DNA from: Croceicoccus sp. YJ47
GTDB lineage: Bacteria; Pseudomonadota; Alphaproteobacteria; Sphingomonadales; Sphingomonadaceae
Assembly: GCF_016745095.1 (NCBI RefSeq)
Contig: NZ_CP067087.1
Span: 1,972,501-2,036,500 of the forward strand
Reading direction: 5' to 3'
DNA: 64,000 nucleotides
Part shown: positions 36,706-54,809 of the stretch, piece by piece
How the letters are laid out: each line of letters opens with the position of its first letter
Numbering within the stretch: the stretch's first letter is position 1
Program-made: the position numbers and the translations under genes
Notes under the pieces: model-generated
What the model saw: the letters and a program-made list of their open reading frames with translations, nothing else
Told to the model about the DNA's origin: nothing
Database searches by the model: none

Positions 36706-36732
36706 TTGTTGTATCGGCGGGATTTACAACAA
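36706..36732 (-). promoter_or_regulatory. Ogr-type dyad upstream of the V-to-D tail operon
   Basis: TTGTTGTA-N11-TACAACAA (27 bp, perfect 8-bp arms), centred 58 bp before the V start. The same dyad recurs at 46581 and 54783. It matches the dyad class bound by P2 Ogr in symmetry and position. Confidence 0.75.
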
Positions 36733-36740
36733 TTCGGGCG

Positions 36741-37007
36741 TCAGGCGCCGGCCTGGACCTCCGCCTTGGCTGCACGCCCCGCCGCAGTCAGGCGCCAGCC
36801 CACGATCGCGCCACCCGACGGCGTCGACAATGGCTCGTAGAAATCGGCAGGCAGATCGACAGGCTCACCCGATGGAGGCCGCGATACCGGCGTCACCGCA
36901 GTATCGACGGGCGCGCCGAACGGATAGGGTGAAGCCAGCGGTATGAAATCGCCGTCCAATGCCGCCAATCGTACGCGGCCTTCATCGCCCAATTGCGCTG
37001 TGCTCAT
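36741..37007 (-). CDS. Small protein ending the fibre operon
   Basis: 88 residues from the ATG at 37007 (ATGA overlap with the tailspike stop). It has a Pro-rich centre (VDTAVTPVSRPPSGEPVDLP) and the C-terminus GGAIVGWRLTAAGRAAKAEV. No family recognised; it is probably a fibre-associated or chaperone-like protein by position. It ends 9 bp before the Ogr-type dyad. Confidence 0.6.
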   Translation of the reverse strand: MSTAQLGDEGRVRLAALDGDFIPLASPYPFGAPVDTAVTPVSRPPSGEPVDLPADFYEPLSTPSGGAIVGWRLTAAGRAAKAEVQAGA

Positions 37008-39555
37008 TGTTCCTGTCCCTTCGTCGTTGCCCGGAACGTGAGGTTCGGGCCGGCGGCAGCAGCGGCGGAGATATTGCGCAGCCGGAAACGCACCGCGTCG
37101 TTCACGGCCTGCACCTGGATGATTTCGAACTCGGCCGGCAGGGCGGCGGCGAACACCTCGGCGCGCAGCCGCGCGTTTGCACCCGCGACCGGGATCGTGT
37201 GGACATCGGTGACTGCGCCGGCCGCGATCGTCTGCGCGCCGAGGTCGATTGCCACGCTGCCAGAAAGGGCGGGCGGCGCGGTGTCGACGATCCACCGCAT
37301 GCCCTGAATATCGCGGGCGACAAGCTTCAGCGACTGGCCGGGCGGGATGACGGCCCGAGCCGGGCTGTCGTCGTGCCGGACGTCGACGAGCATGGGATAG
37401 GCATCGGCCTCGAAATTATGGAGCGTGAGCTCCTGCCCTTCCTGCACCCCGGACGCATTGACGACAAATGCGACCGGCCCCGCGATCCTGATTTCCGGAT
37501 CGGCAGGCGCGCGCGAGCGCACGCTCATCGCATCGCCGATGATCGGGAAGAAGCTGTCGGATTGCAGGTTGACGGAGGGCAGCGAAATCGACGCCTGTGT
37601 CGAGCGGAACCGATTGCCGCGAAACAGCGGGTGATAATCGCGCACCGTGCTCGCCGGCGCCAGCGAGACACCGGCAAGCGATTCGCCGCCACCGTGCTCG
37701 ATGATGACGCGTTCGCCTATCGAGCCGCCATATTGCACGCAAGCCGCGAAATATTTGCCCGTTTCGATCGCATAGGCCGTGCGGTAGCAGTTCACGACGA
37801 AGCGCGCGTCATGGATCCCCTTATGCCCGGTGCCGAGTTCGTCGTCGTCATTGCCGAGCAGGGTCAGCGGGATGTTGTCGCTGCTGCGATCGGCCCAGGC
37901 ATTGAGCGTGACGTCGATTGTTTGGGCATCGGCCGGCGCGACGCGCTGGCCATCGATGACCGAGATCGCCGTCGTGTCCACGGTCACCGCGCTGTCGATC
38001 GCGTCGATCTGTCCGCGGACATAGGATTGAACAGCAATGCGGCTGTCGATGAGCTTGATGTCGACGTCCATCATCGGCGGCTCTTCGCCGGGCCGGTAGG
38101 ATGCGGGCCAAAAATTCTTGTTCTGGGTATCGAAATTGAAGCCGCCGCCCTGCAGGTGGCCGCCCTTCGTGTTCCGGATCGTGCACCGCACGCGCGAGCC
38201 TTCGCCGCCTTTCCCTTCGATCGAGAAATAGGCGTTCTCGAGGACGACATTGCCGTCGACGACGAGCCTTTGCACATCGTTCGGATTGATGCATTGCCCG
38301 TTCGTCTCGGCGATGCGGATGTTGCCGATGAACGTTCCGGTGCTGCCCGAAGCGAGATAGACGCATTCACCGCGCCAACCCACGATGCTGGACGTGCCGG
38401 TCATCCGGACCTCGCCCTTGTTGAAGCCGTCGGGCTGCATCTGGATGCACTTGTGGCTCTGATTGTCCCAGCCATCGCCGGTGACAGGATCGGCGGGCCA
38501 GAACCCCTGGCCGGTGTAGTTCGTGCCGCCCATCAGATGCATGTCGTGCAGGTGAAGCGACGCGTATTCCGACGGATCCTCGGGCTCCTCAAGCTTGCGG
38601 ACGAGTTGATGGGCCACGCCGCGCCATATCTTGCCGTTCACGACCTGCCAATCGGTCCGCGGGTCGCCTCCGTTATGGGTGCGATAATCGATCGTCGTGC
38701 CGCCGCACAGCGAAACGATTGAAATGGGACGGGTATGGACGAGATGGATGCCGTCCTCTGCGAACTGATCGGCGGGGTCAGAAATGCGATAAGGCGCCCA
38801 AGATTGGTAATACGGATGCGTCATGCCCATCTGCCCGATACCCGCCGCGTTGGCATAACGGACCAACGCTTTCATGGCAGGTTGGCTATTGCCGGCGGCG
38901 AGGCCGCGGGCAATGCCGCCGATCGCGCCGAACTGTTCCGGCCGGATCATCCCGTTTTCCCCGTCGAGGCGGAATATGCGGCCATTCGCGGTGCGGAACA
39001 CGGCGCGCGGGTGGGCGGCCAGCAGCGCGTCGGTGCACAGATTGTCGCAAACATAGGCGCCGGCGCCGCGCCGACGCTGTCATAGCCTGTCGAGATGATC
39101 CGATCGGTGCCAACCGGAACGTCGAGCAGGGGAATTTCGGTGGCGACGCCGGTGGCGAATGGCTTGCCGACGAGCGCGGCGAGGAAGTCTTCTTCGCTGC
39201 CGGCGTTGCCCTGGTCGAGCCACGCCTGATAGGCCGAGCGACCATCGCCGCCGGCGATCGAGGTTCCGGCCGACCAGATCCCCTCGACCTTCGGCCCGTA
39301 GATGGTCTGCGCCACGCGGTCGAAATAATAATCGCCGTCGCGGCCGAGCTCGACAGGCGGCGCGCCGGTACCCGATCGCCAGCCCGAGCCATCTTCGCCG
39401 TCGCGCGGAGTCGGCACGTCGGCAAGCAACCACTGGCGCAGCGTTCCGATCGGGAGGCGGCGAAGATCCGTGGCGCCGGTGCCGATCGGCAGGCTGTCGA
39501 GCTCGGCAATGTCGGTCAGCTCTTCCAGCTGCTGGACAAGTTTGGTGTCGGCCAT
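37004..39555 (-). pseudogene. Tailspike with beta-helix domain, frameshifted
   Basis: Two frames make one protein of about 850 residues. The first frame (from the ATG at 39555; 202 residues) starts MADTKLVQQLEELTDIAELD and runs to IISTGYDSVGA. Translation then goes out of frame near 39070-39085 in a GC-only run (GGCGCGGCGCCGGCGCC). The second frame resumes with GAYVCDNLCTDALLAAHPRA then VFRTANGRIF and runs to 37004. One base is missing or two are extra. The second part has the phage tailspike head-binding look (RLDGENGMIRPEQFGAIGGI) and a right-handed beta-helix composition with DVDIKLIDSR repeats. A surface-glycan binding or cleaving role is inferred. Either the phage has lost its spike or this is a sequencing error in the GC run. 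Confidence 0.75.
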
Positions 39556-39559
39556 GTCT

Positions 39560-39793
39560 TCAGTCTTTCCGCGAATAGGTGGGTTCGTCGTCGCTTTCGA
39601 AGCTTCGCCGGCAATGGTCCGGCTCCCAGAAGAACAGCGTGTCGATCATGGCGACGGCGACAGCGCCCCAGCGGCGGCCGGCTTGTCGTGCTTCCCAGCT
39701 TCGCGCCGAAAAGGTCTGGTCGCGATTGCCGAACCAGATCGCGTTCCACAATTGCGACCACGCGCCGCAGATCGCCACGATCCAGCGCGTCAT
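39560..39793 (-). CDS. Conserved small phage protein, unknown
   Basis: 77 residues from the ATG at 39793 (ATGA overlap with the upstream gene). It has an N-terminal hydrophobic Trp-rich segment (RWIVAICGAWSQLWNAIWFG) and the end FFWEPDHCRRSFESD, a motif known from many phage hypothetical proteins that sit beside tail genes. Function unknown. Confidence 0.65.
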   Translation of the reverse strand: MTRWIVAICGAWSQLWNAIWFGNRDQTFSARSWEARQAGRRWGAVAVAMIDTLFFWEPDHCRRSFESDDEPTYSRKD

Positions 39794-40410
39794 GCCCAGG
39801 CCTCCGGATCGGCGGGATCGATCGGCGCGTCGGCCGCGAGCAGTTCGAAATAGCGATGCCAGATGGGCTGACGGATCGCGGCGGCCGCTTTCAGAACGTC
39901 GAGCCATTCCGGGCCGGTCACCGCAACGGGGCCGGTGTCCGTGACGATGGCGATGGCGGTGGTGTCGTCGTTGGTGCCGGCAAGCGCCTGCGCATAGGGG
40001 GTGACATCGAGGCTCCACGCCCGCATGTCCGCCTCGCTCGTGCCGATGCGATGCACGCCGCGCACGTCACCGAAATCGTAGTCGAACCCCAGCGCCAGCC
40101 TGCGTTCCCGCTCCGCGATCAGCGCGGCTTCGAAATCGGCGCGGGCCTGTTCGGCAAAGCGCGCGCGTTCGTCCTCGCTGAAGGCGCGCACCGTCCAGGC
40201 CTGCTGCCATCGGCCATCGACGAACTCGGGCATGTCGGCTTCCTCGACGACGTCGCCGGCCGGCATCGGGGAGGGATGCACGATGGCATAGCCGCGCTTT
40301 GCCAGCATGGCCGCGGACGGTTCGCGCGGGAAGCTGTCCGATGGGAATTCGGCGCGAAGATCGGCGAGCGTGCAGGGGAAGCGGCGGTCGCGGGTGCGAA
40401 TGAGCTGCAT
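39790..40410 (-). CDS. DUF4376-type tail fibre assembly protein
   Basis: 206 residues from the ATG at 40410 (TGATG overlap with the Gly-rich gene; a TTG one codon upstream is possible). The C-terminal half resembles DUF4376 of fibre-assembly proteins, with FGDVRGVHRIGTSEADMRAW, then VTPYAQALA and KAAAAIRQPIWHRYFEL. It probably helps fold the fibre encoded next to it. Confidence 0.7.
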   Translation of the reverse strand: MQLIRTRDRRFPCTLADLRAEFPSDSFPREPSAAMLAKRGYAIVHPSPMPAGDVVEEADMPEFVDGRWQQAWTVRAFSEDERARFAEQARADFEAALIAERERRLALGFDYDFGDVRGVHRIGTSEADMRAWSLDVTPYAQALAGTNDDTTAIAIVTDTGPVAVTGPEWLDVLKAAAAIRQPIWHRYFELLAADAPIDPADPEAWA

Positions 40411-41195
40411 CAATAAATCTCCACGGTGTCGCTGGATGCCTGGTCGACTTGGGTCGAGGGAAAGGCGCGCTTCGGCCCCCAGATGATGCGAACCGCGCCG
40501 CGCCCGGCCTTTGCGCCGACGGTGTAGGATCCGCCGCCGCCATAATCGCCGCCGGCCAGGGTGGTGCCCGGCGCGCCACCCGAGCCGCCCTTGCCGCCCT
40601 GGCTGTTGAACGTGCCGGCGGCACCGCTGGCGGCCTGGCCGTAAAGCCCGACACCGCCGCCGCCGTGATAGACGTCGGACCCGCTGGATACATAGGCGCC
40701 GCCGCCGCCGCCGCCTTCGCCCGGCAGGGGCGCGATGTTCGAGGCGCCGCCATTGCCCCCCTTGCCGCTATAGCCGCCAGCCCCGCCGCCGCCGTATGAG
40801 CCCGCGCCGCCGTTGCCGCCGCCATCATGCACGGTCGGCGTGCCGTATTGATCGCCCTCGCCGCCGCCGGAGGCATGGGCGAGATACTGGCCGGCGCGAG
40901 CGATATAGCTGGCTGTCGACGCGCGGGTCGCGGCGTCGAAGGTGACATGCCGCTTGCCGACCCGGATGGTCAGCGTTTCCCCCGGCGTGACCGGGATCCG
41001 GTTCTTCCAGGCAAGGCCGCCGCCGGCGCCGGCGAGGGAGGTCTGGCTCGTCCTCACGCCGCCGGCCCCGATGCAGAGCGCACAGATTTCTCGCACGCCT
41101 CGCGGAACGGTCCACTGCACGGCCACGCCATCCTCGGCGAGGAAGACCGCTTCGCCGGCGGGCGGCGCGGCGCTTGCGAGCATCATCTCGATCAT
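40410..41195 (-). CDS. Glycine-rich tail fibre tip protein
   Basis: 261 residues from the ATG at 41195. A beta-rich N-terminal part (VAVQWTVPRGVREICALCIG then AGG) leads into a long Gly-rich region with many GGGG runs (about residues 115-240), ending in RGAVRIIWGP. This is the pattern of Gly-rich fibre tips (polyglycine-helix sandwiches) that bind receptors. The ATGA overlap with the preceding gene fixes the start. The receptor is unknown. Confidence 0.75.
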   Translation of the reverse strand: MIEMMLASAAPPAGEAVFLAEDGVAVQWTVPRGVREICALCIGAGGVRTSQTSLAGAGGGLAWKNRIPVTPGETLTIRVGKRHVTFDAATRASTASYIARAGQYLAHASGGGEGDQYGTPTVHDGGGNGGAGSYGGGGAGGYSGKGGNGGASNIAPLPGEGGGGGGAYVSSGSDVYHGGGGVGLYGQAASGAAGTFNSQGGKGGSGGAPGTTLAGGDYGGGGSYTVGAKAGRGAVRIIWGPKRAFPSTQVDQASSDTVEIY

Positions 41196-41911
41196 GCCTT
41201 CGGCCCTGTGGTGCCCAGCCATTTGGCGCCGGTCCAGAACAGCACGATGCACATATCGGTCCCTTCGAGCAGCGGGGCGGTGCCGTTCGACCAGGTCACC
41301 GCGGCGGGCCAGCTGATCATGCGGGAGGCGAGGCTCGCGCCCGACAGGTGGACAACGGCGGTGAGCGCGCGATCGGCGGCCGGCGGATTGGCGAAAGTGA
41401 TGGTGATGTCGGTGGCGACATTGATGCGGAACACCTGCGCCTTCGCAAAATCGAGCGCGCTGGTCGCGGGGGCGGAAAGGAGAGAAACCGAACCGAGATG
41501 GGCGCGAAGATCCGCGGCCACGTTCGACAGATCGGCGTTTGCGAAATCCGACGTCGCGGCAAGCGCCGCACTGCCAAGGCCGAGATTGTCGCGCGCCGCC
41601 GCCACGTCGCTGAGGTCGGCCAGATTGGCGTCCTTCACCAGCAGTGGATCGAAGGCGCCTTCCTCGCGCAGCCGATCCTCGAGCGCACGCACCTCGGCCT
41701 CGACCGCCAGCACCTGTGCAAAGATCGGCTGCAGCGCATCGGTCAGCCGTTCGAAGCCGATCGTGCGCAATTCGTTGATGACGGCCGCCAGATCAGGCTG
41801 CAGCGCCTCGAGCGCGCGAAGCCGGGCGAGGAGATAACCCATCGCCCGGTTCATGCGCGCCGGCGTCGCCGCCCGGTCGGCCGCGAAGTCGATCTCAGGC
41901 GGGAGTGACAT
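41192..41911 (-). CDS. Tail fibre-like protein
   Basis: 239 residues. A helical coiled-coil N-terminus (ARLRALEALQPDLAAVINEL, AVEAEVRALEDRLREE) is followed by the fibre phrase ANLADLSDVAAARDNLGLGS, a standard repeat in phage tail fibres, and a beta-rich end. Probably a trimeric shaft segment. The reading frame overlaps the 56-residue gene by 17 bp. Confidence 0.75.
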   Translation of the reverse strand: MSLPPEIDFAADRAATPARMNRAMGYLLARLRALEALQPDLAAVINELRTIGFERLTDALQPIFAQVLAVEAEVRALEDRLREEGAFDPLLVKDANLADLSDVAAARDNLGLGSAALAATSDFANADLSNVAADLRAHLGSVSLLSAPATSALDFAKAQVFRINVATDITITFANPPAADRALTAVVHLSGASLASRMISWPAAVTWSNGTAPLLEGTDMCIVLFWTGAKWLGTTGPKA

Positions 41912-42065
41912 CGGCGACGGCCTCGTCCGCGATCATGGCATCGAGCAGTTCCTGGTCGACCCGGATCGACAGGCCCGGCTTATAGGTGAAGCCGCGTCGT
42001 TCGAAGGGTTTCGCCAGGGCGACCTTGTAAAAGCCTGACGTCGATTTCTGATAAGTGGTGGCCAT
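41895..42065 (-). CDS. 56-residue fibre-operon protein
   Basis: A short gene with a clear Shine-Dalgarno (AAGGAGA upstream of the ATG at 42065). The product is MATTYQKSTSGFYKVALAKP at its start and contains RRGFTYKPGLSIRVDQELLD. It resembles no named family; by position it could be a fibre accessory or chaperone. Confidence 0.65.
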   Translation of the reverse strand: MATTYQKSTSGFYKVALAKPFERRGFTYKPGLSIRVDQELLDAMIADEAVADVTPA

Positions 42066-42077
42066 CGGCCGGTCTCC

Positions 42078-44321: not shown

Positions 44322-44322
44322 T

Positions 44323-45654
44323 TTAGACCTTTCTGAGCTGGCCGAAGGTGAAGTCGCCGAATTGCAAGTCGCTGGCGAAAGCGGCGCGGCGATGGTTGGT
44401 GGTGTCGAGGCGGATCGTATCCCGGAGCGCCTTGGAGACGCCGACCGCCTCGATCGCCTTGGCGAGCGCGGTCATGTCGGCCGCCTTGCGAAAGCCGGCG
44501 CGATGCCAGCGGCCCGATCGGCGGCGCGGGCGGCGCATGGGCACGGCGAGCTTCAGCTCGGACGAATAGGGATCGATGCCGAACCGGTCGTGTCCGTGCC
44601 AGGACAGGGCGCGGCGCCGCGCGCCCATGCGCTCGGGCACGTGGAGGGCGATGCGGTCATAGAGAAACAAGGGTGCTGCGCTGCGCATGAGGAAGCCGCC
44701 GCGTCCGTGATGCTGACGCCCGAAGAAGGCGCGCGGGGCGGGTGCGATGCGGGGCTGCGCGATGCGTTGCGGTCGCACGTCGACCGGCTGCATCCCGCGC
44801 GTGGCGGCGAGCGCCTGCGCATTATCGTCCGCGCGAATGGTGACGATCCCCAGTTCGGCGCGGCTGCGCGTCAGGAAGCCGGTGCCGAAGCCGCGGCCGT
44901 GCCAGCTGCGCCGTGAGCCGGAATTTGCGAGAAAGACGCGGGTGACCGTGCCGCCCTCGATATGCGCAAAGGCGACGTCCTGTTCCTCGCCGCGATCGTG
45001 GAAGGTGGCGCGCCGGCCGTAGAGCATCGGCCCGCGCGAGCGGCGATGGAATGCGACGGGCGTCGCCGGGGCATCGATCGAGCGCGCCTCGCCCGAAAGG
45101 CCGCCCAGGGCGATGCCGTCGCCAGTGCCGATCGCGAGAGTGACCTCGGCAAAGCTGCCGCCGCCGTGGAATTGCCGCCGCGCACCCGGCCCGGTGTAGA
45201 AACCATGGGCGCGCGGAGCGATGGCGCGATGGGCGAACGGGTAAAGCCGGATCTGCGGCAGATCGTCACGCCAGGCTGCGCGCTGCGCGTCGGTCATGGC
45301 GCCGCGCATGAACCCGCGAGCCGGCGGGCGGATTGCGCGCACCAGCTTCACGTCGACGAGGTCGAGATGGGCGCGGATGCCGGCGAGCGTCGTCTTGCCC
45401 CGGTGCAGGGCGAGCGCATTGCGGCAGACATTGCGCTTCTTCGTCTCGGGCCAGTCATCGTCCCACAGGTCGATCGAATAATGCCAGGCGAGAAAGCCGA
45501 GATAATCCGCCGGGCAGCGATCCGGGTCCATGACGTCGCGGACGAGATGGACGGGCAGCGAGGCGCGCGCGGCGGTCGCATCCTCGAATGCGCGTTCGAA
45601 GGCCGTTGCGTTTGGCGGGAGCAGCGGGCCGCGTATCTGGGCGGTGCCGATCAT
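44323..45654 (-). CDS. I: Tail protein I with long C-terminal extension
   Basis: 443 residues, more than twice the usual length of P2 gpI. Residues 1 to about 115 are gpI: PPNATAFERAFEDATAARAS, DVMDPDRCPADYLGFLAWHY and KRNVCRNALALHRGKTTLAG. The remaining ~300 residues, rich in Arg/His/Gly (RAHGFYTGPGARRQFHGGGS), are a fused extension not seen in P2 and look like a beta-rich fibre-attachment domain. Its start overlaps J by 4 bp. Confidence 0.85.
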   Translation of the reverse strand: MIGTAQIRGPLLPPNATAFERAFEDATAARASLPVHLVRDVMDPDRCPADYLGFLAWHYSIDLWDDDWPETKKRNVCRNALALHRGKTTLAGIRAHLDLVDVKLVRAIRPPARGFMRGAMTDAQRAAWRDDLPQIRLYPFAHRAIAPRAHGFYTGPGARRQFHGGGSFAEVTLAIGTGDGIALGGLSGEARSIDAPATPVAFHRRSRGPMLYGRRATFHDRGEEQDVAFAHIEGGTVTRVFLANSGSRRSWHGRGFGTGFLTRSRAELGIVTIRADDNAQALAATRGMQPVDVRPQRIAQPRIAPAPRAFFGRQHHGRGGFLMRSAAPLFLYDRIALHVPERMGARRRALSWHGHDRFGIDPYSSELKLAVPMRRPRRRSGRWHRAGFRKAADMTALAKAIEAVGVSKALRDTIRLDTTNHRRAAFASDLQFGDFTFGQLRKV

Positions 45655-46535
45655 GGCCGGTCGACCGTGATGATGAGGTCACGCAGCCAGGCCGCGCCGG
45701 CATCGCCGGGGGCGATATCGGCCAGCGTGCAGCTTGCATGCTCGACGCCGCCGACGCTCGCGACCGCGGCGAGCTGCTGCGCGTAAACGACGCGGCCGAT
45801 CGCATGGCGGCGCAAGGCATAGGCGCGCACCGCGCGTTCCGCTTGTTGCCTGACCAGCGCAGGATCGGGTCCGCGCGCGATCGTGAGGCGGACCTCGGCA
45901 TCATAGGGCACGATTGTCGCGCCGCGCACCGATACGACATCGGTGAGCTGCACCGCGTCGTCCTCGGCGAAAGCGGCGGCGACGTCGGCGACAATATCAC
46001 CGGGCACGTCGCCATCGCCGTCGCGGCCGAGCAGGATGATGTCGACGCGACCGCCGCCGCGATTGATCGCGGCAACGTCCTTCAGCGCCGGCGCGATCGC
46101 CAGCGCGCGCGAGCGATAGAAGCCGCCGGTGACGCCGGCATGGGGCAGAGCCTCGGGCGCAAGCTGGATGCGGGCGCGCAATTCGTCGTCGCTTTCCATG
46201 ATCGCCGGTTCGGTGGCGGTCGCGAGGGTAAGCGTGCGCCGCGAAACGCCGAGCAGCGCGCCGATCTGGTCGAGATTGCCGCCGCGGGCGTAGGCCAGCA
46301 TGGTCGAGCGTGCTGCATCGTCGATCGCGTGGCGGGTGAGCAGCTCGCGCCATGCCACGACTTGGAGCAGCTTGACCGCCGGGTCGCTATCGACCGGCGT
46401 GTCGAATTGCGGCCAGCGCGCCTGCAGATCGGCGATCACATCGCCGAGGATTGCCTCGAAATCCTGCGCCGCCAGCGTATCGGGCGCGGGCAGGGCGGAC
46501 AGGTCGAGCGCGTTTGAAGATGGCGAGGCGGGCAT
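45651..46535 (-). CDS. J: Baseplate protein J
   Basis: 294 residues. The gpJ/gp47-like fold is visible in DTLAAQDFEAILGDVIADLQ, DSDPAVKLLQVVAWRELLTR and NRGGGRVDIILLGRDGDGD. It joins the wedge to the fibre proteins. It is the first gene of the J-I-fibre operon, has no Shine-Dalgarno, and lies 59 bp from the centre of an Ogr-type dyad. GATAGCTGGCGGCT runs directly into its ATG. Confidence 0.9.
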   Translation of the reverse strand: MPASPSSNALDLSALPAPDTLAAQDFEAILGDVIADLQARWPQFDTPVDSDPAVKLLQVVAWRELLTRHAIDDAARSTMLAYARGGNLDQIGALLGVSRRTLTLATATEPAIMESDDELRARIQLAPEALPHAGVTGGFYRSRALAIAPALKDVAAINRGGGRVDIILLGRDGDGDVPGDIVADVAAAFAEDDAVQLTDVVSVRGATIVPYDAEVRLTIARGPDPALVRQQAERAVRAYALRRHAIGRVVYAQQLAAVASVGGVEHASCTLADIAPGDAGAAWLRDLIITVDRP

Positions 46536-46580
46536 AGCCGCCAGCTATCGCGCAGGGATGGCAAGGGCGGCGAGCGGGTG

Positions 46581-46607
46581 TTGTTGTAGGGGGGCGGTTT
46601 ACAACAG
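46581..46607 (-). promoter_or_regulatory. Ogr-type dyad upstream of the J-I-fibre operon
   Basis: TTGTTGTA-N11-TACAACAG, one mismatch from perfect, centred at 46594 and 59 bp before the J start. A -10-like GATAGCT (46543-46549, minus strand) sits between, so the transcript would start at or near the ATG. Confidence 0.75.
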
Positions 46608-46628
46608 AGGGATAATCAGAAACGGGGT

Positions 46629-47189
46629 CTACCCTTCGCTCGGAAAAACCTTTTTAGTTGGGCCTTGCTCCAGAGCATCAAATAGTGTGGCTATATGTTC
46701 CGGCTCGGGGAGATCAGATGTCGTTAAGACGTTTAGTCCAGCCTGAGAGGCATGTTTGATAAGATTCAGATCGTCAGAATACAATGTATCTGCTCTCTCA
46801 GCTACAGCTGTCCCAATTATCTGACGGTCGAATTTAACCTTTTGCCATGGTGCGCTTACGCCGGCTCGCTTGTCACCATCTTTGAGGGCGTGACGTGCCA
46901 ACATCGCAGTTTCAATAGCCGCTTGGGTTCCGAATGGACGAATTTTAAATCTCGCGGTGGAAGAGATTTGAGCGATCAATGCTGGACCATCGTCGGGAGC
47001 AATGACCAAAATTTCGGCCAGCGCTGGGGCGGGAACGATTATGGTGTCATCCGCTTTCAGGCAATCTAGGAACTTGTTGATTCGGCCTTCGCAGTTATTA
47101 ATTGGCCCCCCATTGTTACGGTCCTTGGGTGGACTTGCTTGAGGGTTAAGTAAAAGGATTAAAGCTGAGCTGTCGACCACAATAATCAC
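46629..47189 (-). CDS. PIN-domain protein of a two-gene module
   Basis: 186 residues from the GTG at 47189, overlapping the partner stop (GTGA). The PIN nuclease residues are all present: Asp6 (VVDSSAL), Glu59 (ALAEIL), Asp121 (KFDRQI) and Asp139/Asp140 (YSDDLNL). It is longer than VapC toxins, with an insertion after residue 18 and a C-terminal tail. It is presumably a Mg-dependent RNase. The region is AT-richer than its neighbours, which points to separate acquisition. It lies between the S gene and the J promoter, on the late-operon strand. Substrate unknown. Confidence 0.75.
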   Translation of the reverse strand: MIIVVDSSALILLLNPQASPPKDRNNGGPINNCEGRINKFLDCLKADDTIIVPAPALAEILVIAPDDGPALIAQISSTARFKIRPFGTQAAIETAMLARHALKDGDKRAGVSAPWQKVKFDRQIIGTAVAERADTLYSDDLNLIKHASQAGLNVLTTSDLPEPEHIATLFDALEQGPTKKVFPSEG

Positions 47190-47935
47190 TCAGATTCGTC
47201 CTCCTCGTTCCCCCGCAGTGCAAGCAATTGTTTAACTGCATCTGCGCTTCGCAATTGGCTGCCCAAAGTTTTACGAGCCTTGATAATTACGTCAGCTATT
47301 TTGTTCCCATCCAGACGTTCAAAACGGTCTACTTTGAAGTCGCTCATCTTCCAATCGCCATCTGGGAGGCGTTCGAATCGCCCATTTCCGTATAAGCGGA
47401 CAGGCTCACCGTATAAGAGGAGGGCAAGTTCTTTCGCTAGTTCACGCCTCATCGTGATACCCGCGTGTATGGTTTCGCCGTCCTGCAGAATCGCATGTGC
47501 AGAACTGTCCCGGCCTCCAATAGAGACGATCGTTCCGTCGAGGCTTGTATCCTCGCGAAAGGGTGGAAAATTTAAAGGCTTTTTTCGAGTCCTTCCGGCG
47601 AATGGAAGGACCACGATATCATCGCCACCGACAGTTAGCGTTGCGATTGCGTTGTCATTTGCCAGCAAATCCTCAAGCTGATCTTTCGCAGCTAGCGCAT
47701 CTTTAGGGGCGGTACCGATACGAACGCCGTGTAGGCGGGTTTCGACCTTCGGAGCATCAATGGGGTCAACGGCAGCGCGTAGTTTTGCACTTCCTTTTTC
47801 AATGCCAACGAAATGGGTATGCTCTTCGTGACCAAACATTCTAGCCAATGCGCTGAGATATGCCGCCAAACGTTGCATCGGCAGAGTTGCCGGATCGAAC
47901 GCATCAATACGGAAGACATATTGAACCGGATCCAA
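47186..47935 (-). CDS. Partner of the PIN-domain protein, unknown family
   Basis: 249 residues from the TTG at 47935, chosen because AAGGAGG lies 6 bp before it and the protein begins at the conserved-looking DPVQYVFRIDAFDPATLPMQ. Proteins that read like this (MQRLAAYLSALARMFGHEEH then FVGIEKGSAKLRAAV) occur next to PIN-domain genes in other bacteria as far as I recall, but no function is known to me. The centre is beta-rich (DDIVVLPFAG), and a second half has YGEPVRLYGNGRFER. It could be the neutralising or targeting partner. A longer open frame to 48088 has no ribosome site. Confidence 0.65.
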   Translation of the reverse strand: MDPVQYVFRIDAFDPATLPMQRLAAYLSALARMFGHEEHTHFVGIEKGSAKLRAAVDPIDAPKVETRLHGVRIGTAPKDALAAKDQLEDLLANDNAIATLTVGGDDIVVLPFAGRTRKKPLNFPPFREDTSLDGTIVSIGGRDSSAHAILQDGETIHAGITMRRELAKELALLLYGEPVRLYGNGRFERLPDGDWKMSDFKVDRFERLDGNKIADVIIKARKTLGSQLRSADAVKQLLALRGNEEDESE

Positions 47936-48110
47936 GGCTGCCTCCTTCCGTTTCAATGGGCAACGGTCTGCCATGGTGCATGCAGATGCATGATTGAACA
48001 CGCATGGGAATAACCCCCTATAACGAGACTCGTATATCTTAAAAGATATGTTGTGAATTTTTGGTTCCCGAGCTTCCCGTGAGCCCAAGTAGCGTGCGCT
48101 GACCGAATCG
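47936..48110 (-). promoter_or_regulatory. AT-rich leader of the PIN module
   Basis: A 175-bp gap, distinctly AT-rich (TATCTTAAAAGATATG at 48033-48048), precedes the module and follows the end of S. It holds an AAAGATATG-like -10 candidate on the minus strand and may give the module its own promoter, separate from late control. A short inverted repeat ATCTT-AAAGAT is included. Confidence 0.4.
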
Positions 48111-48575
48111 TTATCGATCGAGCCATTCGAGCAGTTCGTCGGTCATGCCGTCGATGTCATCGCGTGCAAACCCGAGCAGCCGTCGCCGGGGATAGCGGGC
48201 GCGAATCGTATCGCCGGCCTTCGTTTTGCCGACATAGCTTTCGCGCCCGAAATGATGGTCGCTGGCGATCCGGTTTGAGCCGGCCCGGAAGCGAAGCTCG
48301 ACGCCTTCGTCGGACGGTTTGATCGTCAGGTGCCGGGCATAGCGCAGCCGCCGGAACATCTTGCGTCGGCGCAGGCGTTTGTCGCCGCGATCCTTGCGCG
48401 GTTCCATGGCACCGCCATCCGGTTCCTCGTTCGCGGCCATGCGGGCAAGGTTCGATCGACGCAGCTGCTGCCCGATCTTACGCGCGACGAGCCGTCGACG
48501 CGCCGGCGAGATGTCGGCCAGCATGTCATCGAAGAAGCGGCCGAGGTCATCCAGGCCGTGGCCGGCGTCGGTCAC
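48111..48575 (-). CDS. S: Tail completion protein S
   Basis: 154 residues, the P2 gpS-type virion morphogenesis protein: LGRFFDDMLADISPARRRLV then ARKIGQQLRRSN and the end ARYPRRRLLGFARDDIDGMT. It is needed for tail assembly in P2. It is the last late gene of the O-to-S operon, ahead of the accessory PIN module. The start overlaps the R stop by 4 bp. Confidence 0.88.
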   Translation of the reverse strand: MTDAGHGLDDLGRFFDDMLADISPARRRLVARKIGQQLRRSNLARMAANEEPDGGAMEPRKDRGDKRLRRRKMFRRLRYARHLTIKPSDEGVELRFRAGSNRIASDHHFGRESYVGKTKAGDTIRARYPRRRLLGFARDDIDGMTDELLEWLDR

Positions 48576-49054
48576 GGCAACAGACCTGCGCCGCCGAGGG
48601 TGATGGCATCGAGCGAGGTTTCGGGCGGCACGCCTTCGAAGGGCGGGTCGATATCGGGTTCATCGCGATAGGACATGGTGCCATCGGCGGCGATGTCGAC
48701 CGCCTCGTCGAGCGCGATCGTGATGGCGATGTCCGCCTTGTCGTCGTCGAGGATATCGACCTCGAAGCTGAAAGCTTCATCGCCGGCGGTGTGGTTCTGC
48801 AGGCGTTCTGGCTGTGCGGCGCGGATCCATTCCAGCACGGTGGCGGCGAGGCGGTTCGGATCGCCGGCGAAGTCGAGCAGCACGACGTTCAAGGTGTAGC
48901 GCCATTCGAAGCCGGTTGCCCGGTTCGTTCCGCCCGGCCCCGCGCGTGCGGCAATGCGGCCCTTATCGATATAGATCGACAGCGCCTGCGGATCGCGGGT
49001 CAGATCGGGAAAGGCGGCGGTGAGGGCCGCGCGCAGGGCGTCGTGCTTGCGCAT
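48572..49054 (-). CDS. R: Tail completion protein R
   Basis: 160 residues. MRKHDALRAALTAAFPDLTR then DPQALSIYIDKGRIAARAG is typical for P2 gpR, and the acidic C-terminus (EAVDIAADGTMSYRDEPD) fits. It completes the tail with S. It is preceded by the nuclease gene, 3 bp away. Confidence 0.88.
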   Translation of the reverse strand: MRKHDALRAALTAAFPDLTRDPQALSIYIDKGRIAARAGPGGTNRATGFEWRYTLNVVLLDFAGDPNRLAATVLEWIRAAQPERLQNHTAGDEAFSFEVDILDDDKADIAITIALDEAVDIAADGTMSYRDEPDIDPPFEGVPPETSLDAITLGGAGLLP

Positions 49055-49057
49055 GGC

Positions 49058-49423
49058 TCAGCGATACTCGCGTGCCAGGCCGATGGAGATGAGATAGGCA
49101 CCGGCGTCCTGACCATTCACCGAAAGATGCGCCAGCGTCCGGCCATAAAAATCACGGCCGTCGCGATGAACCAGAACCGGGCCGGTGCTCAAGAAATCCG
49201 CCAGTGCATCGCGGCTTTCCTGCGCCAGGGCGTCATCGCACCAATCGCGCGGTTTCGGCCGCCGACATCGCGGTGATCCCTTCAATTCCGGTGCCTCGAT
49301 CTCGAGCAGCCGAATCCGCTCGTCGCCGCAGCGAATGGTGTCGCCGTCATGAACGGACATTTGCTGGCAGACCTCACCGGGGGCGGAGGCGAGCAACAGG
49401 AACGGGGCCAAAATCTCAATCAT
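49058..49423 (-). CDS. Thermonuclease-like (SNase) domain protein
   Basis: 121 residues with an N-terminal hydrophobic segment (MIEILAPFLLLASAPG), probably a signal peptide. The SNase core shows HDGDTIRC (Asp26), RIRLLEIEAPEL (Arg38, Glu43 where the staphylococcal enzyme has Asp40, Glu46) and FYGRTLA (Arg95, equivalent to Arg87). So the active site is near-complete with one substitution. It lies inside the lysis block, between Rz and R, an unusual place; it may degrade host DNA at lysis, which is inference. Overlaps Rz by 4 bp. Confidence 0.82.
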   Translation of the reverse strand: MIEILAPFLLLASAPGEVCQQMSVHDGDTIRCGDERIRLLEIEAPELKGSPRCRRPKPRDWCDDALAQESRDALADFLSTGPVLVHRDGRDFYGRTLAHLSVNGQDAGAYLISIGLAREYR

Positions 49424-50010
49424 CGCATGACCTTAGCACTTGATGCCTCGATCGCCAGTGCCCAGTCGTGGGCTGCCTCGGCGCGCAGCGTGTTCGACGT
49501 GCAGATCCGCACGTCGGCCGCGCTTACGACCACCATGTCTCCATCAGATTTGTGATCGGGCGCATCCAGCTCGGCCGGTCGACCGGCTGCTTCAGCGTGT
49601 CCGGCGCCGCGATCGCCGGCGGGGGTAAAGGTTCCGCCGGGTGGACAATCAGCGGTTTTGGCCCGCACGCGGTGAGCAGCAATGTAGCGATCGGCAGCAG
49701 CCATGGCTTCCGGGGTCTGGGCATCGGCATTGTCATCGATCCTTTGGGCGAGTTGTCGATAGGCAGCTTCGGCGCGGGCGTGATCCTTCCGCGCGCGGGC
49801 ATTGGCCGCGTCCTGAGCAGCCGCAACGGCCTTTAGCTCTTGCGCAAGGCGCACCGCCTTCGGCCGCCATCCTTCGACGGCGATCGGGCCGATGCGCATG
49901 CCGCCCAGCTGCACGCTTTGGAACGCGGCGATGAAGATTGCGATGGCCAGCAGCAGGCCGGTCAGGCCGACGCGGGCCACGATACGGGCGAGGAGGGGCG
50001 GCAGCGTCAT
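49420..50010 (-). CDS. Inner-membrane spanin (Rz-like)
   Basis: 196 residues from the ATG at 50010 (ATGA overlap with the endolysin). An N-terminal membrane segment (VGLTGLLLAIAIFIAAFQSV) is followed by a coiled-coil region (LAQELKAVAAAQDAANARAR then KDHARAEAAYRQLAQR). That is the i-spanin layout. The Rz1 gene is embedded within it in another frame. The C-terminal region after about residue 120 is longer than in lambda Rz. Confidence 0.8.
   Translation of the reverse strand: MTLPPLLARIVARVGLTGLLLAIAIFIAAFQSVQLGGMRIGPIAVEGWRPKAVRLAQELKAVAAAQDAANARARKDHARAEAAYRQLAQRIDDNADAQTPEAMAAADRYIAAHRVRAKTADCPPGGTFTPAGDRGAGHAEAAGRPAELDAPDHKSDGDMVVVSAADVRICTSNTLRAEAAHDWALAIEASSAKVMR
49524..49736 (-). CDS. 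Outer-membrane spanin lipoprotein (Rz1-like), embedded in Rz
   Basis: 70 residues from the ATG at 49736, in a different frame inside the Rz-like gene. A basic N-terminus and hydrophobic stretch end in the lipobox LLTAC (KPWLLPIATLLLTACGPKPL). The mature part is Pro-rich (PAEPLPPPAIAAPD), as in Rz1 lipoproteins. An embedded Rz1 is the lambda arrangement; P2 LysB/LysC overlap too. Confidence 0.85.
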   Translation of the reverse strand: MTMPMPRPRKPWLLPIATLLLTACGPKPLIVHPAEPLPPPAIAAPDTLKQPVDRPSWMRPITNLMETWWS

Positions 50011-50459
50011 GCGACCAGCCCCTTCCAATATTTGCGGCGGGTATAGGTCAGCACCGAATGACGGGCGCGATCGGGGCGGTAGCTGCAATGGATCCAGCCC
50101 GAGTTCGGATCGCCGCGCACGTAATTTTCGAGGATGAGCTGATCGAAGCGCAGATTGTCGCGGATCCATGTCGCGACGGCGAGGTTGGAGACGCCGGCGA
50201 TCTCGAAGTCGGCGGCCTGCCCCTTGCAATGTTGCGAGCGGGCCGATGAGCCTACGGCGCGGCTCAGCGCGGGGGTGCGATAGCCGCTGGTAATGCGAAC
50301 GGGGCGGCTGAACTGTTCGCGCACGGGCTCGAGCACGGCGCGGCACAAATGCCCCATCGCCTCGATATGATCGAGGGTCGGGCCGTTGGCGATGCCGAGG
50401 CGGCGCGCGGTGGCGCTGTTGGTGAATTCGGCGAGGCTGAAATGCGGCGACAGTTTCAT
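50007..50459 (-). CDS. Endolysin, peptidase M15A family
   Basis: 150 residues. The zinc site is complete: His77 (SQHCKG), Asp84 (AADFEI) and His124 (GWIHCSY), with the substrate loop TSGYRTPALSRAVGSSA. It should cleave peptidoglycan cross-links (L-Ala-D-Glu or D-Ala bonds). P2 itself uses a different lysozyme (gpK), so this is a replaced module. It overlaps Rz by 4 bp and starts 3 bp after the holin-like gene. Confidence 0.9.
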   Translation of the reverse strand: MKLSPHFSLAEFTNSATARRLGIANGPTLDHIEAMGHLCRAVLEPVREQFSRPVRITSGYRTPALSRAVGSSARSQHCKGQAADFEIAGVSNLAVATWIRDNLRFDQLILENYVRGDPNSGWIHCSYRPDRARHSVLTYTRRKYWKGLVA

Positions 50460-50462
50460 GGG

Positions 50463-50882
50463 TCAGGCCTCCTGTTCCGACGGTTCGGCGGTCTCGGTGA
50501 AGGTGTAGGGCGGCACACCCGCTTCGCGCGCCTCGCGAAGGATGCCGGGGAACTCTTCACCAAGCAGCACCTGGACATGCGCCAGCTCGGGCGCGCCGGG
50601 TTCGTCGCGGGCAATCTTCGACACGAGCAAATGAATGGCGGTGCGCTGTCGGCCGACAGTGTCCATGACCTGTTGCAGCCGGTCGCCCATGCGCGCGACC
50701 TCCGCCTCGAGCACGCGGATCCGGCTGTCGCGCATTTCCTCGAACGCCTTTTCGCGCGCGTCGAGCTCGGCGCCGCGCTTGTCAATGCGGCCCGTCAGCT
50801 GTTTCCAGGCAAAGCGCAGACCGCCGCCGATCAGGCCGAGGACTGAAATGGCGGTGAAGCCGGTGTAGAATTCTTCGGTCAT
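50463..50882 (-). CDS. Holin-like or spanin-associated single-span protein
   Basis: 139 residues with one N-terminal membrane segment (TGFTAISVLGLIGGGLRFAW) and a long coiled-coil region (KRGAELDAREKAFEEMRDSR). Its place directly before the endolysin suggests a holin (P2 gpY position), though with a single span and coiled coil it does not match P2 Y. The role is inferred from position. Confidence 0.55.
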   Translation of the reverse strand: MTEEFYTGFTAISVLGLIGGGLRFAWKQLTGRIDKRGAELDAREKAFEEMRDSRIRVLEAEVARMGDRLQQVMDTVGRQRTAIHLLVSKIARDEPGAPELAHVQVLLGEEFPGILREAREAGVPPYTFTETAEPSEQEA

Positions 50883-50889
50883 CGTTCGG

Positions 50890-51096
50890 TCAATCCCAAA
50901 GCTGGACGAGTTTGATGGTGGGTGCGGTGGCGGGCGGCGTGTCGGGCAGGTCGATCGGCGTGCCCGACGGCAGCACCGGGCCGAGCGCGGCGAGATCGGG
51001 ATTGCGGGCCAGTACGGCGCTCACCGAACGTTCGCTGCCGAGCTCTCGCCAGCAGACGAGGTCGACCGTGTCGCCCTGGATGGAATGGACCCGCAT
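50890..51096 (-). CDS. X: Tail protein X
   Basis: 68 residues, the P2 gpX LysM-like tail protein: RVHSIQGDTVDLVCWRELGS, then VLARNPDLAALGPVLPSGTP. It sits between L and the holin-like gene as in P2. Its single-base overlap with L keeps translation linked. Confidence 0.9.
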   Translation of the reverse strand: MRVHSIQGDTVDLVCWRELGSERSVSAVLARNPDLAALGPVLPSGTPIDLPDTPPATAPTIKLVQLWD

Positions 51097-51581
51097 CAGA
51101 TCAGCTCGACCGCAGTGCGTGTAACGCCGAGGATGTCGCGGATCGCGTGTGTGGCGTTGCGGCGCAGCTCGTCGGCAGCGGTCGCTTCCTCATCGATGCG
51201 GCTGCGGCCGTCTACCGTGGCGCTGACATCGTGATGGGTTTCGGCAAGGTCGGCGGCCGCCATGCAGAACACCGCGCGGCGATAGAGCAGGACCGATGCC
51301 GATTCGCCGTCGATCGTTTCGGCCGGAATTGCGGCAAGCGACGGCGCGCCGGCCAGCACATGCGCGAGCTTCCATACGCGCAATTCGCGGCGGACATGGA
51401 CCATCGCGCCGCGCAGGGCATCGCGCACCCGCTCCTCCGCGATGGAGCTGCGTCCGATTTTCATGGCGTCGCGAAAGCTCGCGATTGACACGCCCGGCCA
51501 GAAGACATCGCCGGCCACGATGTCGGTTTCCGGCGGTGGGGCCGTTTCGGATGGCGGGCGGGCGACGAAGCCGGACATCAT
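51096..51581 (-). CDS. L: Head completion protein L
   Basis: 161 residues. VFWPGVSIASFRDAMKIGRS and AAMVHVRRELRVWKLAHVLA-like stretches with RRAVFCMAAADLAETHHDVS match P2 gpL. AAGGAG precedes two adjacent ATGs (51581, 51578); either may be used. It seals the filled head. Confidence 0.88.
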   Translation of the reverse strand: MMSGFVARPPSETAPPPETDIVAGDVFWPGVSIASFRDAMKIGRSSIAEERVRDALRGAMVHVRRELRVWKLAHVLAGAPSLAAIPAETIDGESASVLLYRRAVFCMAAADLAETHHDVSATVDGRSRIDEEATAADELRRNATHAIRDILGVTRTAVELI

Positions 51582-51720
51582 GCTCCTTTCGAGCGATCAA
51601 AGTTTTCGGGGGTGGGGAAGCGCGAGAGGATGCGGTTTGGCAGGCAAGCCTGCTCCGTCCTTCGTCTTCCGCCCCCGAGCGCCGTGGGGCGAGGTCGTTG
51701 CGGCCGGTCGACCGCGAAAT

Positions 51721-52488
51721 TCAGTCGTTGTTCGCGTCGGCCAGTTTGTTGGCCTCGCGCGTTCGTTGTTCGATCAGTTTCTTCACGCCCGACTTGTCAT
51801 CGAGCGCGAGAGCGCGGTGCGCATGGCGTAGCGCGAATTCGAGTGCGGCTTTCTTGCCGCCGGCGGGGCCATCGCCCGAGCGTTCGCCAGCCTCGGCAAC
51901 GTCGGCGCTACGTAGCGTCGCGATCGCGATTGCCTTGTGCAGCTTGGCGCGGGCCTGGTCGGGCATGTCCTCGTGTTCGGTCAGCTCGGCGATCTCGAGG
52001 AGGGGGCGCGTATCGATATGGTCCGCGCCGCTGCCCATCGCGCGAAGGGCAGTCTCGGCAAATTCCTCGGCGATCATGCAGCCGAGCGTGCGTTCGAAGC
52101 GCGAGGGCAGTTCCATGCCGTGGCGCAGGACACAGCGCGCACGGGGCAGGGCGCGGGCCTCGTCGGCGGTGTCGATCGCCCAGATCATCGTCTGCACCAG
52201 GATCCGATCACTTTGCACCATCTGGCCCTTGTCCTCGGCCTCGCGCGCGGCGGCGAGCACGCCTTCGGCCCAGTCGTCATATTTCGGCAGCAGCTCGGCC
52301 TTGCGGGCGATTTTGGCCTCGATCGATTGCATATCCTTCAGCCCGCGCAGATCTTCGCCCAGCTCGGCAAGCCGGATCTGGTAATCGCTCTCGGCGCGAT
52401 CGGCGCGGCGCGGCGCGGCCTTGGCGGCGGGGGCTGCACGCTTTTGCGCCATGGTCCGGGCGCGGTGTCGCATCGCGAGGCTGGTCAT
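51721..52488 (-). CDS. M: Small terminase subunit M (endonuclease)
   Basis: 255 residues, the P2 gpM family: RRADRAESDYQIRLAELGED, LKDMQSIEAKIARKAELLPK, then LVQTMIWAIDTADEARAL. It recognises and cuts cos in P2-like phages. A 139-bp gap separates it from L with nothing recognised in it. Confidence 0.88.
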   Translation of the reverse strand: MTSLAMRHRARTMAQKRAAPAAKAAPRRADRAESDYQIRLAELGEDLRGLKDMQSIEAKIARKAELLPKYDDWAEGVLAAAREAEDKGQMVQSDRILVQTMIWAIDTADEARALPRARCVLRHGMELPSRFERTLGCMIAEEFAETALRAMGSGADHIDTRPLLEIAELTEHEDMPDQARAKLHKAIAIATLRSADVAEAGERSGDGPAGGKKAALEFALRHAHRALALDDKSGVKKLIEQRTREANKLADANND

Positions 52489-52559
52489 CGAAGGGCGGTC
52501 CTGTTGGAAAGGGTGGCCCGGCCCGGATCAAGGCCGGGCCGGGGTGTCAGCGGTTGGGG

Positions 52560-53678
52560 TTATGCAGGGTCGGGGCGGGCCGGGGCGGCGCCGATGACGA
52601 TATTCTCGACCAGCACGGCGAGCTCGTAATCTTCGACGACGTAATCCTCGTTCACGCTTTCGTAGTTGGCGATGCGATCATATTCGCTCTCGTCCCTCAG
52701 CTGCCGACGGCGCGTGCCTTCCTGGAAGTAGATGGAAAGGTTATCGAGCCGGGTGATGAGGATGCCATCGGCCGGGAAGAACGGCACGCGCACGGCGGGA
52801 AGTCCGCCGATCTGCTTGTTCGACCGGATGATGCGATCGGCGGCCTCGACCTCGGTCGCGGTGGCGCCGGCGTTCTGGACGATGTTGAAATATTTGTCGT
52901 CGACCAGGTCATGGTAAGCGATGACGACGAGATCGGTGTCGCCGCGGTGCCATTCGGGCAGCAGCCGCTTCGCATCGAGAACCAGCGCGTCGAGCGAGGA
53001 ATAATCCGCCGCCGCGTCGACCGCATTGTCGAGGCTGGAATCATAAAGCTCCGCGCCTGCCTTGACGTAGATCGCCTTCGTCGCGTCGTCATCGGTGCCG
53101 TCGCTGTGCACGGAAAGCGAGCCGTCCAACAGGACCATTTCGGGCGCGCGGGTGCGGATCTTGTGGAGCCAGCCCTCGTTGACGTCCTGAAGCATCGGGA
53201 AGGCCGCGCGATCGGTCTCGACGGCGGCATGGGTGCCGTGCCAACCGATCATGATCCGGTCGCGACCCTGCTGTTTCAGGATCGCGTCGCGCAGTTTCGT
53301 TTCGAAGTCGGGGCGGTGGCGCCATGCGTCCATTGCGGCATAGCTGCGCGCCCAGTCGAAATTGGTCTGGCGGCAATGGTAGTTGTTCCGCTCCTCATTG
53401 CCGGTCGGATCGGTGGGGTTGCGGCGATTGCCGCCGGCGGTGTTGGTGCGCCCGGCGATGGTGCGCGTCGCCTCGAGTCCGATGGTCTGGCCCACCTGCT
53501 GGGTGACCGGCACCATGTTGATCGCGCTCAGGAACTCGGACGATTCCTTCATCCGCTCCTCGAGCTTTTGCTCGATCGATGGATCGACGGAGAAGCGGAC
53601 GGTGGCGTCGGGTACCGAGTTCAGCAGCGCGATCTGGCTGACATAGGCGGAAAAGAGGGCACGGGTTTCGTTGCGCAT
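52560..53678 (-). CDS. N: Major capsid protein N
   Basis: 372 residues, close to P2 gpN (357). MRNETRALFSAYVSQIALLN opens it, and IGWHGTHAAVETDRAAFPML, DVNEGWLHKIRTRAPE and ITRLDNLSIYFQEGTRRRQL are family stretches. The mature shell subunit after cleavage by the O protease. The 85-bp gap upstream has a half-match to the Ogr dyad (TTTACA at 53715-53720) without its partner arm. Confidence 0.93.
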   Translation of the reverse strand: MRNETRALFSAYVSQIALLNSVPDATVRFSVDPSIEQKLEERMKESSEFLSAINMVPVTQQVGQTIGLEATRTIAGRTNTAGGNRRNPTDPTGNEERNNYHCRQTNFDWARSYAAMDAWRHRPDFETKLRDAILKQQGRDRIMIGWHGTHAAVETDRAAFPMLQDVNEGWLHKIRTRAPEMVLLDGSLSVHSDGTDDDATKAIYVKAGAELYDSSLDNAVDAAADYSSLDALVLDAKRLLPEWHRGDTDLVVIAYHDLVDDKYFNIVQNAGATATEVEAADRIIRSNKQIGGLPAVRVPFFPADGILITRLDNLSIYFQEGTRRRQLRDESEYDRIANYESVNEDYVVEDYELAVLVENIVIGAAPARPDPA

Positions 53679-53763
53679 GGGGCGGTCCTGTCGGGAGAGA
53701 AAGGCGGGGGGCGGTTTACAGGCGGGGCAGTTCAGTTGACGGGGCGAGTGTTCCGGTTGACGA

Positions 53764-54636
53764 TCAGCAGTCGGTGCGGGCGAAGTTCGCGTTCTGGCCG
53801 CTGGCGAGCGGCCGCTGCGTGCCGCCCTTGTCGGTGTTTTCGACCGACGCCTTCAGCGTGTCATGATCGCTGCGCAGCTGGTTGAAGCTGGCGGTGAGAT
53901 CCTTCCCCTGCTGTTCGACCGCGGCGGCGAGCTTGTTCACGCCATTGGCGAGCGCATTGAACGCGGCGATATTGTCGTTCGCGGGTTCGGGGACTTCCGG
54001 CTCTTCCTTTTCCGTCGGCGCAGGGTGTCCGGCGAAGAACTGTTTCATGGACGCGAACAAGCCCTTTGCCTCGGCGAGCAGCGCCGTCGTTTCGGCAGGG
54101 TCGTTTTTGCCATCGGAGAATTCCAGCCCGGTGACCGCATGGGCGGCGGAGAAGAAATTGCCCTTTTCGACCTTGCGCTCCGCAAAGGGGTTGGTCGACG
54201 CCTTCGCCGCGAACTGCATGACCTCGGTGCCGAGCGAGGCCGGGCTGTCGGTGACGGCGAGACCCTGAAGATAGGCCTTCCCGGTGCCGGCGAAGTTGGG
54301 GTTGAGTTCGACCGAGCTGAAAAGTTTCTGACCCTTGCCATTCAATTCGATCAGCGTGTCGAGCGCGTCGACCTGGGCGAACAGGCCGAGCTTCGTTTCG
54401 GTCTTGCCGCCCAGCTGGATCTCGACATCGCGGGTCTCGAGCGCGACGACGTCACCATAGGCATTGAAGGGCGCGTCGGCGGAAAAGCCGCGGATGTGTT
54501 CCATGTTGATCCGCGCCGTGTAGGTTTTCGGATCGTAGGTCTCGGCCATTTCTTCGAGCGCGCCGCGATCGAGCGTGCGGCCATCGCAGGTGGCGCCTTC
54601 GACGGCGATGCAGAAGAATTTCGAACGCTTGGGCAT
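53764..54636 (-). CDS. O: Capsid scaffold/protease O
   Basis: 290 residues from the ATG at 54636. KRSKFFCIAVEGATCDGRTL at the start, then EMAETYDPKTYTARINMEHI, NPNFAGTGKAYLQGLAVTDS and PASLGTEVMQF follow the P2 gpO pattern; the protein ends ARTDC, like MTNC in P2. The catalytic His/Asp/Ser triad lies in the N-terminal protease part (His in NMEHI). The longer open frame to 54738 adds a region without homology. It is transcribed away from P. Confidence 0.9.
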   Translation of the reverse strand: MPKRSKFFCIAVEGATCDGRTLDRGALEEMAETYDPKTYTARINMEHIRGFSADAPFNAYGDVVALETRDVEIQLGGKTETKLGLFAQVDALDTLIELNGKGQKLFSSVELNPNFAGTGKAYLQGLAVTDSPASLGTEVMQFAAKASTNPFAERKVEKGNFFSAAHAVTGLEFSDGKNDPAETTALLAEAKGLFASMKQFFAGHPAPTEKEEPEVPEPANDNIAAFNALANGVNKLAAAVEQQGKDLTASFNQLRSDHDTLKASVENTDKGGTQRPLASGQNANFARTDC

Positions 54637-54782
54637 GATGGTCGCGGGCTCCATTGTCAGGTGAGCTTCGACGCCCAAGGACGAGAAAGGCGCCGAAGCT
54701 CGGGATCGGCAGGCGGGCACGCGCCTTGCCGAATTCATCGGCCCCGAAAGGGCACCGAAGCGGGCCGCGGTTCAAGCGGCGG

Positions 54783-54809
54783 GTGTTGTAAACCGGGCGG
54801 TTACAACAA
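54783..54809. promoter_or_regulatory. Ogr-type dyad between the divergent O and P operons
   Basis: GTGTTGTA-N11-TACAACAA, one mismatch from the copies at 36706 and 46581, centred at 54796. The ATG of P is 57 bp to the right. To the left, a minus-strand ATG at 54738 is 58 bp away, so a symmetrical site may serve both directions. A -10-like GTTAGCT (54839-54845) precedes P. Confidence 0.75.

Follow-up and report, generated by a model that had tools for sequence, protein, structure and literature searches.

Which DNA signals mark the late operons of a P2-like prophage, and which protein reads them? The locus considered here is a prophage of Croceicoccus sp. YJ47 within a 64,000-base stretch of contig NZ_CP067087.1 (hereafter the window), which encodes a predicted zinc-finger late-gene activator, Ogr, and carries three near-identical inverted repeats (dyads) at its late genes. 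A first-pass annotation had proposed that an Ogr regulon has its operators where the late operons start, and our analysis supports that prediction: judging from sequence, it is highly likely that the prophage's own Ogr uses all three dyads as its operators. They are very probably Ogr operators of a type already published, with 13 bases between TGT and ACA (N13).

Three dyads at the late operon starts

The pattern TTGTTGTA-N11-TACAACAA has exactly three matches in the window at up to three mismatches (none, one and one, in order of position; Table 1), and no match in 100 dinucleotide-preserving shuffles of the window. Across the 3,353,209-base genome the same threshold returns only these three places, each matched on both strands, and the reversed pattern, used as a control, matches once; the first-pass annotation had listed the same three dyads, with 0–1 mismatches, and the scan for further copies that it proposed added none. 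All three fit TGTTGT-N13-ACAACA, with a core spacing of TGT-N13-ACA. They stand before V, before J and between the divergent P and O, a placement borne out by Pfam matches for V, W, J, O, P and Ogr in the window, and three dyads serve four operon starts because one stands between P and O. The arrangement is that of a P2-type regulon, with one candidate operator for each late operon start (V, J, P/O) and none elsewhere in the genome. From the start codons of V, J and P, and from the first ATG of the O frame (58 nt, counted from the sequence), the dyad centre is 57–59 nt away.

The ogr gene lies where it had first been placed and has both the PF04606 score and the cysteine motif (Cys 7, 10, 33 and 38); it is the single Ogr_Delta gene found in the whole genome. 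After induction, Ogr would occupy each dyad some 55 bp 5' of the transcription start, probably as a dimer that sets one zinc ribbon on each half-site, and would recruit host RNA polymerase to the promoters of V, J, P and O, where transcription may start at or beside the start codons. The first strand of the ribbon would read the operator in the manner of NrdR, with R20 at base -2, the second base before the TGT core.

Palindromes at promoters are typical of repressors, and the prophage also encodes helix-turn-helix (HTH) proteins (27467–27820 and 27825–28271), which would suit a reading in which a different phage regulator (CI-like repressor or Cox) silences the late genes through the dyads. 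We regard that reading as very improbable: no copy of the dyad lies near the HTH genes, all being at late operon starts; the P2 and 186 records put activator sites at the corresponding positions; and base -2 of the dyad tracks an Ogr residue, as set out below.

Both J (46516–46560) and P (54826–54852), though not V, have TAGCTGGCG six bases 5' of the ATG, a possible -10 element.

Dyads in related genomes

Among 14 genomes of the genus (our own and 13 others), ogr and the dyad co-occur. Ogr is found only in G000, G297 and G304, and these same genomes contain the dyad at up to two mismatches (3, 1 and 3 copies, against 0 in the other 11), an agreement with a chance of 1 in 364, G297 being 6% contaminated. 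Distances to the dyad centre in G304 are 57 nt for P, 58 for the O frame, 59 for J and 58 for V, and in G297 59 nt for J. A further locus, L211, matches the window in its arms at V and almost matches it in the Ogr finger, and its sheath protein is 98% identical. In G297:C39 (L700), ogr lies about 2.9 kb from the dyad, which precedes a J-like open reading frame (ORF); this is perhaps a rearranged or partial prophage.

PF04606 occurs in 23 of 296 genomes of the order, our own included, and 19 of the remaining 22 supplied 21 stretches. Of these stretches, 14 contained P, O, J and V, one gave nothing, and six had an Ogr-like gene without nearby P2 late genes (G213C68, G201C1, G241C6, G241C7, G186C29 and G263C5), which suggests remnants, contig ends or satellites. 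One palindrome recurs at P/O, J and V in 11 of 15 prophages (14 relatives and the window); in the remainder it was found at P and V (G024), at P and J (G290), weakly at J, P and FI (G065) or ambiguously (G156). The arms read CTCTTGTAGAA in G283 (with similar arms in G225 and G125), CTTGTGTAG in G188, CGCTTGTGAG in G273, CTATTGTCAG in G230, CCTTGTA in G167, GCGGTAA in G222, CATTTGGA in G263C3, TATGGACAG in G003, GCGTCGGGGAG in G290 and GGTTAGAAC in G024. A P2-like prophage has dyads of its own, which recur at its late promoters and vary from one phage to the next. The scan of related prophages put forward in the first-pass annotation thus finds dyads at late promoters, with arms that differ from phage to phage.

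The window's exact dyad was also sought in the 296 genomes, of which 53 match at up to two mismatches. This count is uninformative: the reversed pattern, run as a control, finds matches in many of the genomes listed too, so most of the 53 look like chance.

A finger residue that tends to track an operator base

Without sight of Ogr, the palindrome best shared by two late promoters was taken as the dyad in 239 training loci among the matches listed for sheath- and tube-protein queries and 315 test loci among the matches listed for sheath-protein queries. A search of V and J alone failed where J sits inside the V operon, so promoters were then picked by gene order. A score of at least 29 was reached at 44 of 127 loci and in 16 of 298 cross-phage pairs, the former figure being the best of up to three promoter pairs and the control a single pair. 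The rule, fixed before the test loci, joins Arg or Lys at residue X (R-x-S-X, the 10th residue after the first cysteine pair) with G at -2. After the test output X was redefined as the residue 13 before the third cysteine, which is the same R-x-S-X residue and tolerates indels; in the window's Ogr it is R20.

The main count used a dyad score of at least 29.5, giving 55 distinct fingers. Eight without a TGT core were dropped (G024C4, L201, G263C3, G290C21, G222C1, G003C1, L254 and G156C22), one of which, G290C21 (Lys, G at -2), would fit the rule. Dereplication at 80% finger identity left 34 TGT-core phages, with a spacing of N13 in 28, N14 in 4 and N12 in 2; the arms rather than the spacing account for most of the variation between phages. 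Gly-Lys at X and X+1 goes with a TGG core in place of TGT in 4 of 4 cases (L201, G263C3, L254 and G003C1); these look like a second rule but are probably one related group, and were kept out of the count.

In the 34 phages, with G at -2 scored where three or more of the four halves have it, the count is 8 of 10 for Arg or Lys at X and 0 of 24 for another residue (Fisher p 2.5e-6); the other residues go mostly with C or T. Two further callers were run on the same loci, so the three results do not count as independent samples. The looser of these (TGT-N12..14-ACA in two promoters; 139 loci called out of 363 with a finger, reduced to 60 representatives) gave 13/17 against 12/43 (p 8e-4), weakened because chance sites get picked up, for example in the P2-like phage L436. 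An anchored caller, which takes a palindrome 55–59 nt from the V-frame ATG, reached at least 6/8 in 108 of 209 loci, against 25 of 209 at a control distance, and found G in both halves in 11/16 (Arg or Lys) against 2/32 (other X; p 1.2e-5). The pair X and -2 ranked top of 108 pairs of finger column and operator position (four residue classes; z 6.0; 0/400 shuffles).

A natural swap is seen between L455 (Lys at X) and L460, L512 and L473 (Glu at X), four loci of Acinetobacter type, the host group being inferred from Acinetobacter query sequences. Their late regions share about 77–89% DNA identity in aligned pieces, and at the V and FI promoters the flanks are similar whereas the dyads differ (AGTTGT arms against (C/T)TTGTATA arms).

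The rule could instead be an artefact of shared ancestry and of choosing it on the same data, the dyads still being Ogr operators. It was first noticed in the training loci, the test fingers alone are few (2/2 against 0/5, p 0.048), the literal first definition of X, adjusted after the test output, gives 1/1 against 1/6, and there are exceptions. Set against this, independent contrasts chosen greedily on the sheath-protein tree agree in 10/11 and 7/7 cases, the pair X and -2 ranks first among the column pairs, a prediction for P2 was set down before its sites were read and P2 and 186 fit, and MAFFT places X on R17 of NrdR. We consider the artefact unlikely, while still giving it real weight.

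The relation between X and base -2 is a strong tendency, not a law, and several observations tell against reading every dyad through it. KS14, FLC5 and L242 have Arg with TTTGT, G often lying one base further out; G230C2 has Arg with A at -2; L356 (Arg) is mixed and Acica (Arg) gives no clear call. Conversely, G accompanies Phe in L637 and Gln in L282, and in the looser set Ala in L214 and Val in L138 (3/4 halves in both); the dropped G222C1 (Glu, GGT core, G in 3/4 halves) would not fit either. Against the operator reading itself, many loci gave no confident dyad, as the 44 of 127 indicate, and by inspection only, the P/O region of K139 lacks TGT-N11..15-ACA.

The co-variation supports, as a model, the co-evolution of activator and operator raised by the first-pass annotation. 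We lean slightly towards seeing the Ogr regulon as a family of mutually private switches, in which a residue on the first ribbon strand reads an operator base and activator and operators change together, even between siblings. With some 40 natural activator–operator pairs and one position that tends to predict a base, specificity can be put to the test directly in natural proteins. If the model is true, cross-activation of late genes between particular prophages and satellites could be predicted from it, and private switches would insulate late-gene expression from co-resident prophages and satellites.

Modelled Ogr fold and a possible likeness to NrdR

An AlphaFold model of the window's Ogr, built on a 51-row alignment, has a mean pLDDT of 84.4 (about 98 over residues 11–50) and strands at 13–23, 26–33 and 41–47, with R20 on the first. 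The top four Foldseek matches are NrdR (probability 0.98–1.00), with weak E values of 0.051–0.35, and 0 of 616 matches reach E 0.001. A sequence-profile search of the PDB gave 19 matches, from which NrdR was absent; they include weak zinc-finger and RPB9 matches (best E 0.013), and the sequence search found no solved Ogr structure. MAFFT aligns RTSR of Ogr with KDSR of NrdR, so that X falls on R17, and an ungapped count from the second cysteine puts X one residue off R17. In the Streptomyces NrdR–DNA complex, as presented in the available portion of PMC9110341, D15 and R17 are positioned at major-groove bases, and the R17A variant fails to bind. On this modelled fold, X may be taken as a candidate recognition residue with a structural precedent in NrdR. 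Excerpts of two reports (PMC9110341, PMC12176259) describe palindromic NrdR boxes read by paired ribbons, a further possible likeness; NrdR differs in being a host repressor with an ATP-cone.

Distance from dyad to start codon

The spacing between dyad and start codon is nearly constant. Across 41 dereplicated phages, the dyad centre has an in-frame ATG at 55–60 nt in 37/38 cases for V, 12/13 for P and 8/11 for J, against 6/76 for the other two frames at V; for FI the figure is 0/20, distances in other phages being 79.5–95 nt with one at 128. The 55–60 nt that separate an operator centre from the start codon of V, J or P can be used as a ruler when late promoters and probable leaderless mRNAs are annotated. 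RNA hairpins or terminators could also account for inverted repeats between gene blocks, an explanation we find barely credible here, given that one dyad lies between divergent operons and that the distance to the downstream start codon is near-fixed, also in G304 and for V, J and P in other phages.

In the P2 record (NC_001895), V transcription starts at the V start codon and the activator site is centred 55.5 nt upstream. We infer from such spacing that V mRNA would be leaderless or nearly so across the family, and J and P mRNAs in many members. The same record weighs against extending this too far: in P2 the leaders of P, O and FI measure about 23, 40 and 25 nt, so the leaderless reading fails for P in that phage. 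In the window, homology to gpO begins only near residue 35–39 of the O frame, which leaves the true start of O uncertain.

Prophage genes and neighbourhood

Beyond the features in Table 1, an integrase-like ORF called by eye (59764–61029) adjoins a tRNA-Phe gene (61188–61263), a likely attachment site that would bound the prophage on the right. Two ORFs without a Pfam match, at 46629–47189 and 47186–48088, lie between S and the J dyad and are possible cargo genes inside the late region.

Table 1 Positions of the dyads and of the genes discussed, in window coordinates.
Feature	Positions	Strand	Evidence or proposed role
Dyad 1, TTGTTGTATCGGCGGGATTTACAACAA	36706..36732	none	Candidate operator of the V-W-FI-FII-...-D operon; centre 58 nt from V start codon
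Dyad 2, before J	46581..46607	none	Candidate operator of the J-I-H operon; centre 59 nt from J start codon
Dyad 3, between divergent P and O	54783..54809	none	Candidate shared operator; centre 57 nt from P start codon
ogr, late-gene activator (predicted), 103 aa	25976..26287	-	PF04606 Ogr_Delta 53.6 bits (cut-off 26.3); C-x2-C-x22-C-x4-C
Codon of Ogr R20 (residue X)	26228..26230	-	Counted from the ORF
V, baseplate protein, heads one late operon	36116..36661	-	Phage_base_V 33.5 bits
J, baseplate protein, heads one late operon	45651..46535	-	Baseplate_J 66.7 bits
O, capsid scaffold protease frame, start uncertain	53764..54738	-	Phage_GPO 276 bits
P, terminase large subunit	54853..56685	+	Terminase_6N 144.7 bits, Terminase_6C 109.9 bits; also Terminase_5

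Comparison with known systems

P2 Ogr, 186 B and P4 delta are classical phage activators. P2 Ogr and 186 B are zinc-finger activators, as the window's Ogr is predicted to be, and the records of the two phages (NC_001895, NC_001317) place activator sites some 55 nt before the points where late transcription begins. The comparison with P2 made in the first-pass annotation stands in part: activator sites near -55 are in the P2 record, whereas exact TGT-N11..15-ACA occurs around the annotated P2 and 186 sites only at P2 PV, at N11 and N14, and the sites are poorly symmetric in this reading. Arg stands at X in both phages, and each of the 5 annotated activator sites carries GTTGT in one of its halves. 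P2 differs from the window in having V-W-J in one operon and FI separate, and its published spacing, TGT-N12-ACA, is not matched by the window's dyads.

Smp131 of Stenotrophomonas, in the accessible part of its report (PMC3931495), has separate P', O', J' and V' promoters, the same operon split as in the window, and a reported spacing of TGT-N12-ACA, against N13 here; its Ogr has Ala at X, and no confident dyad was called. In the open-access literature on Ogr, late promoters, specificity, co-evolution and leaderless mRNAs we found no description of private operators, of the residue–base rule or of the start-codon ruler; older work on the P2, 186, PSP3 and phiR73 activators may contain parts of this.

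The closest operators are those of the Ralstonia phages. The portion of PMC5694545 available to us prints TGTTGT-(X)13-ACAACA at four late promoter regions of phiRSY1, matching phiRSA1, together with an encoded Ogr homologue. Since the window's motif is the same, the one-base-longer spacing that the first-pass annotation had offered as new is not new. The host class is another one, and in the window three dyads stand for four operon starts, with J and V in separate operons. Against this background the N13 operator type is known, and what looks new is the family-wide privacy of the operators, the candidate recognition residue and the start-codon ruler.

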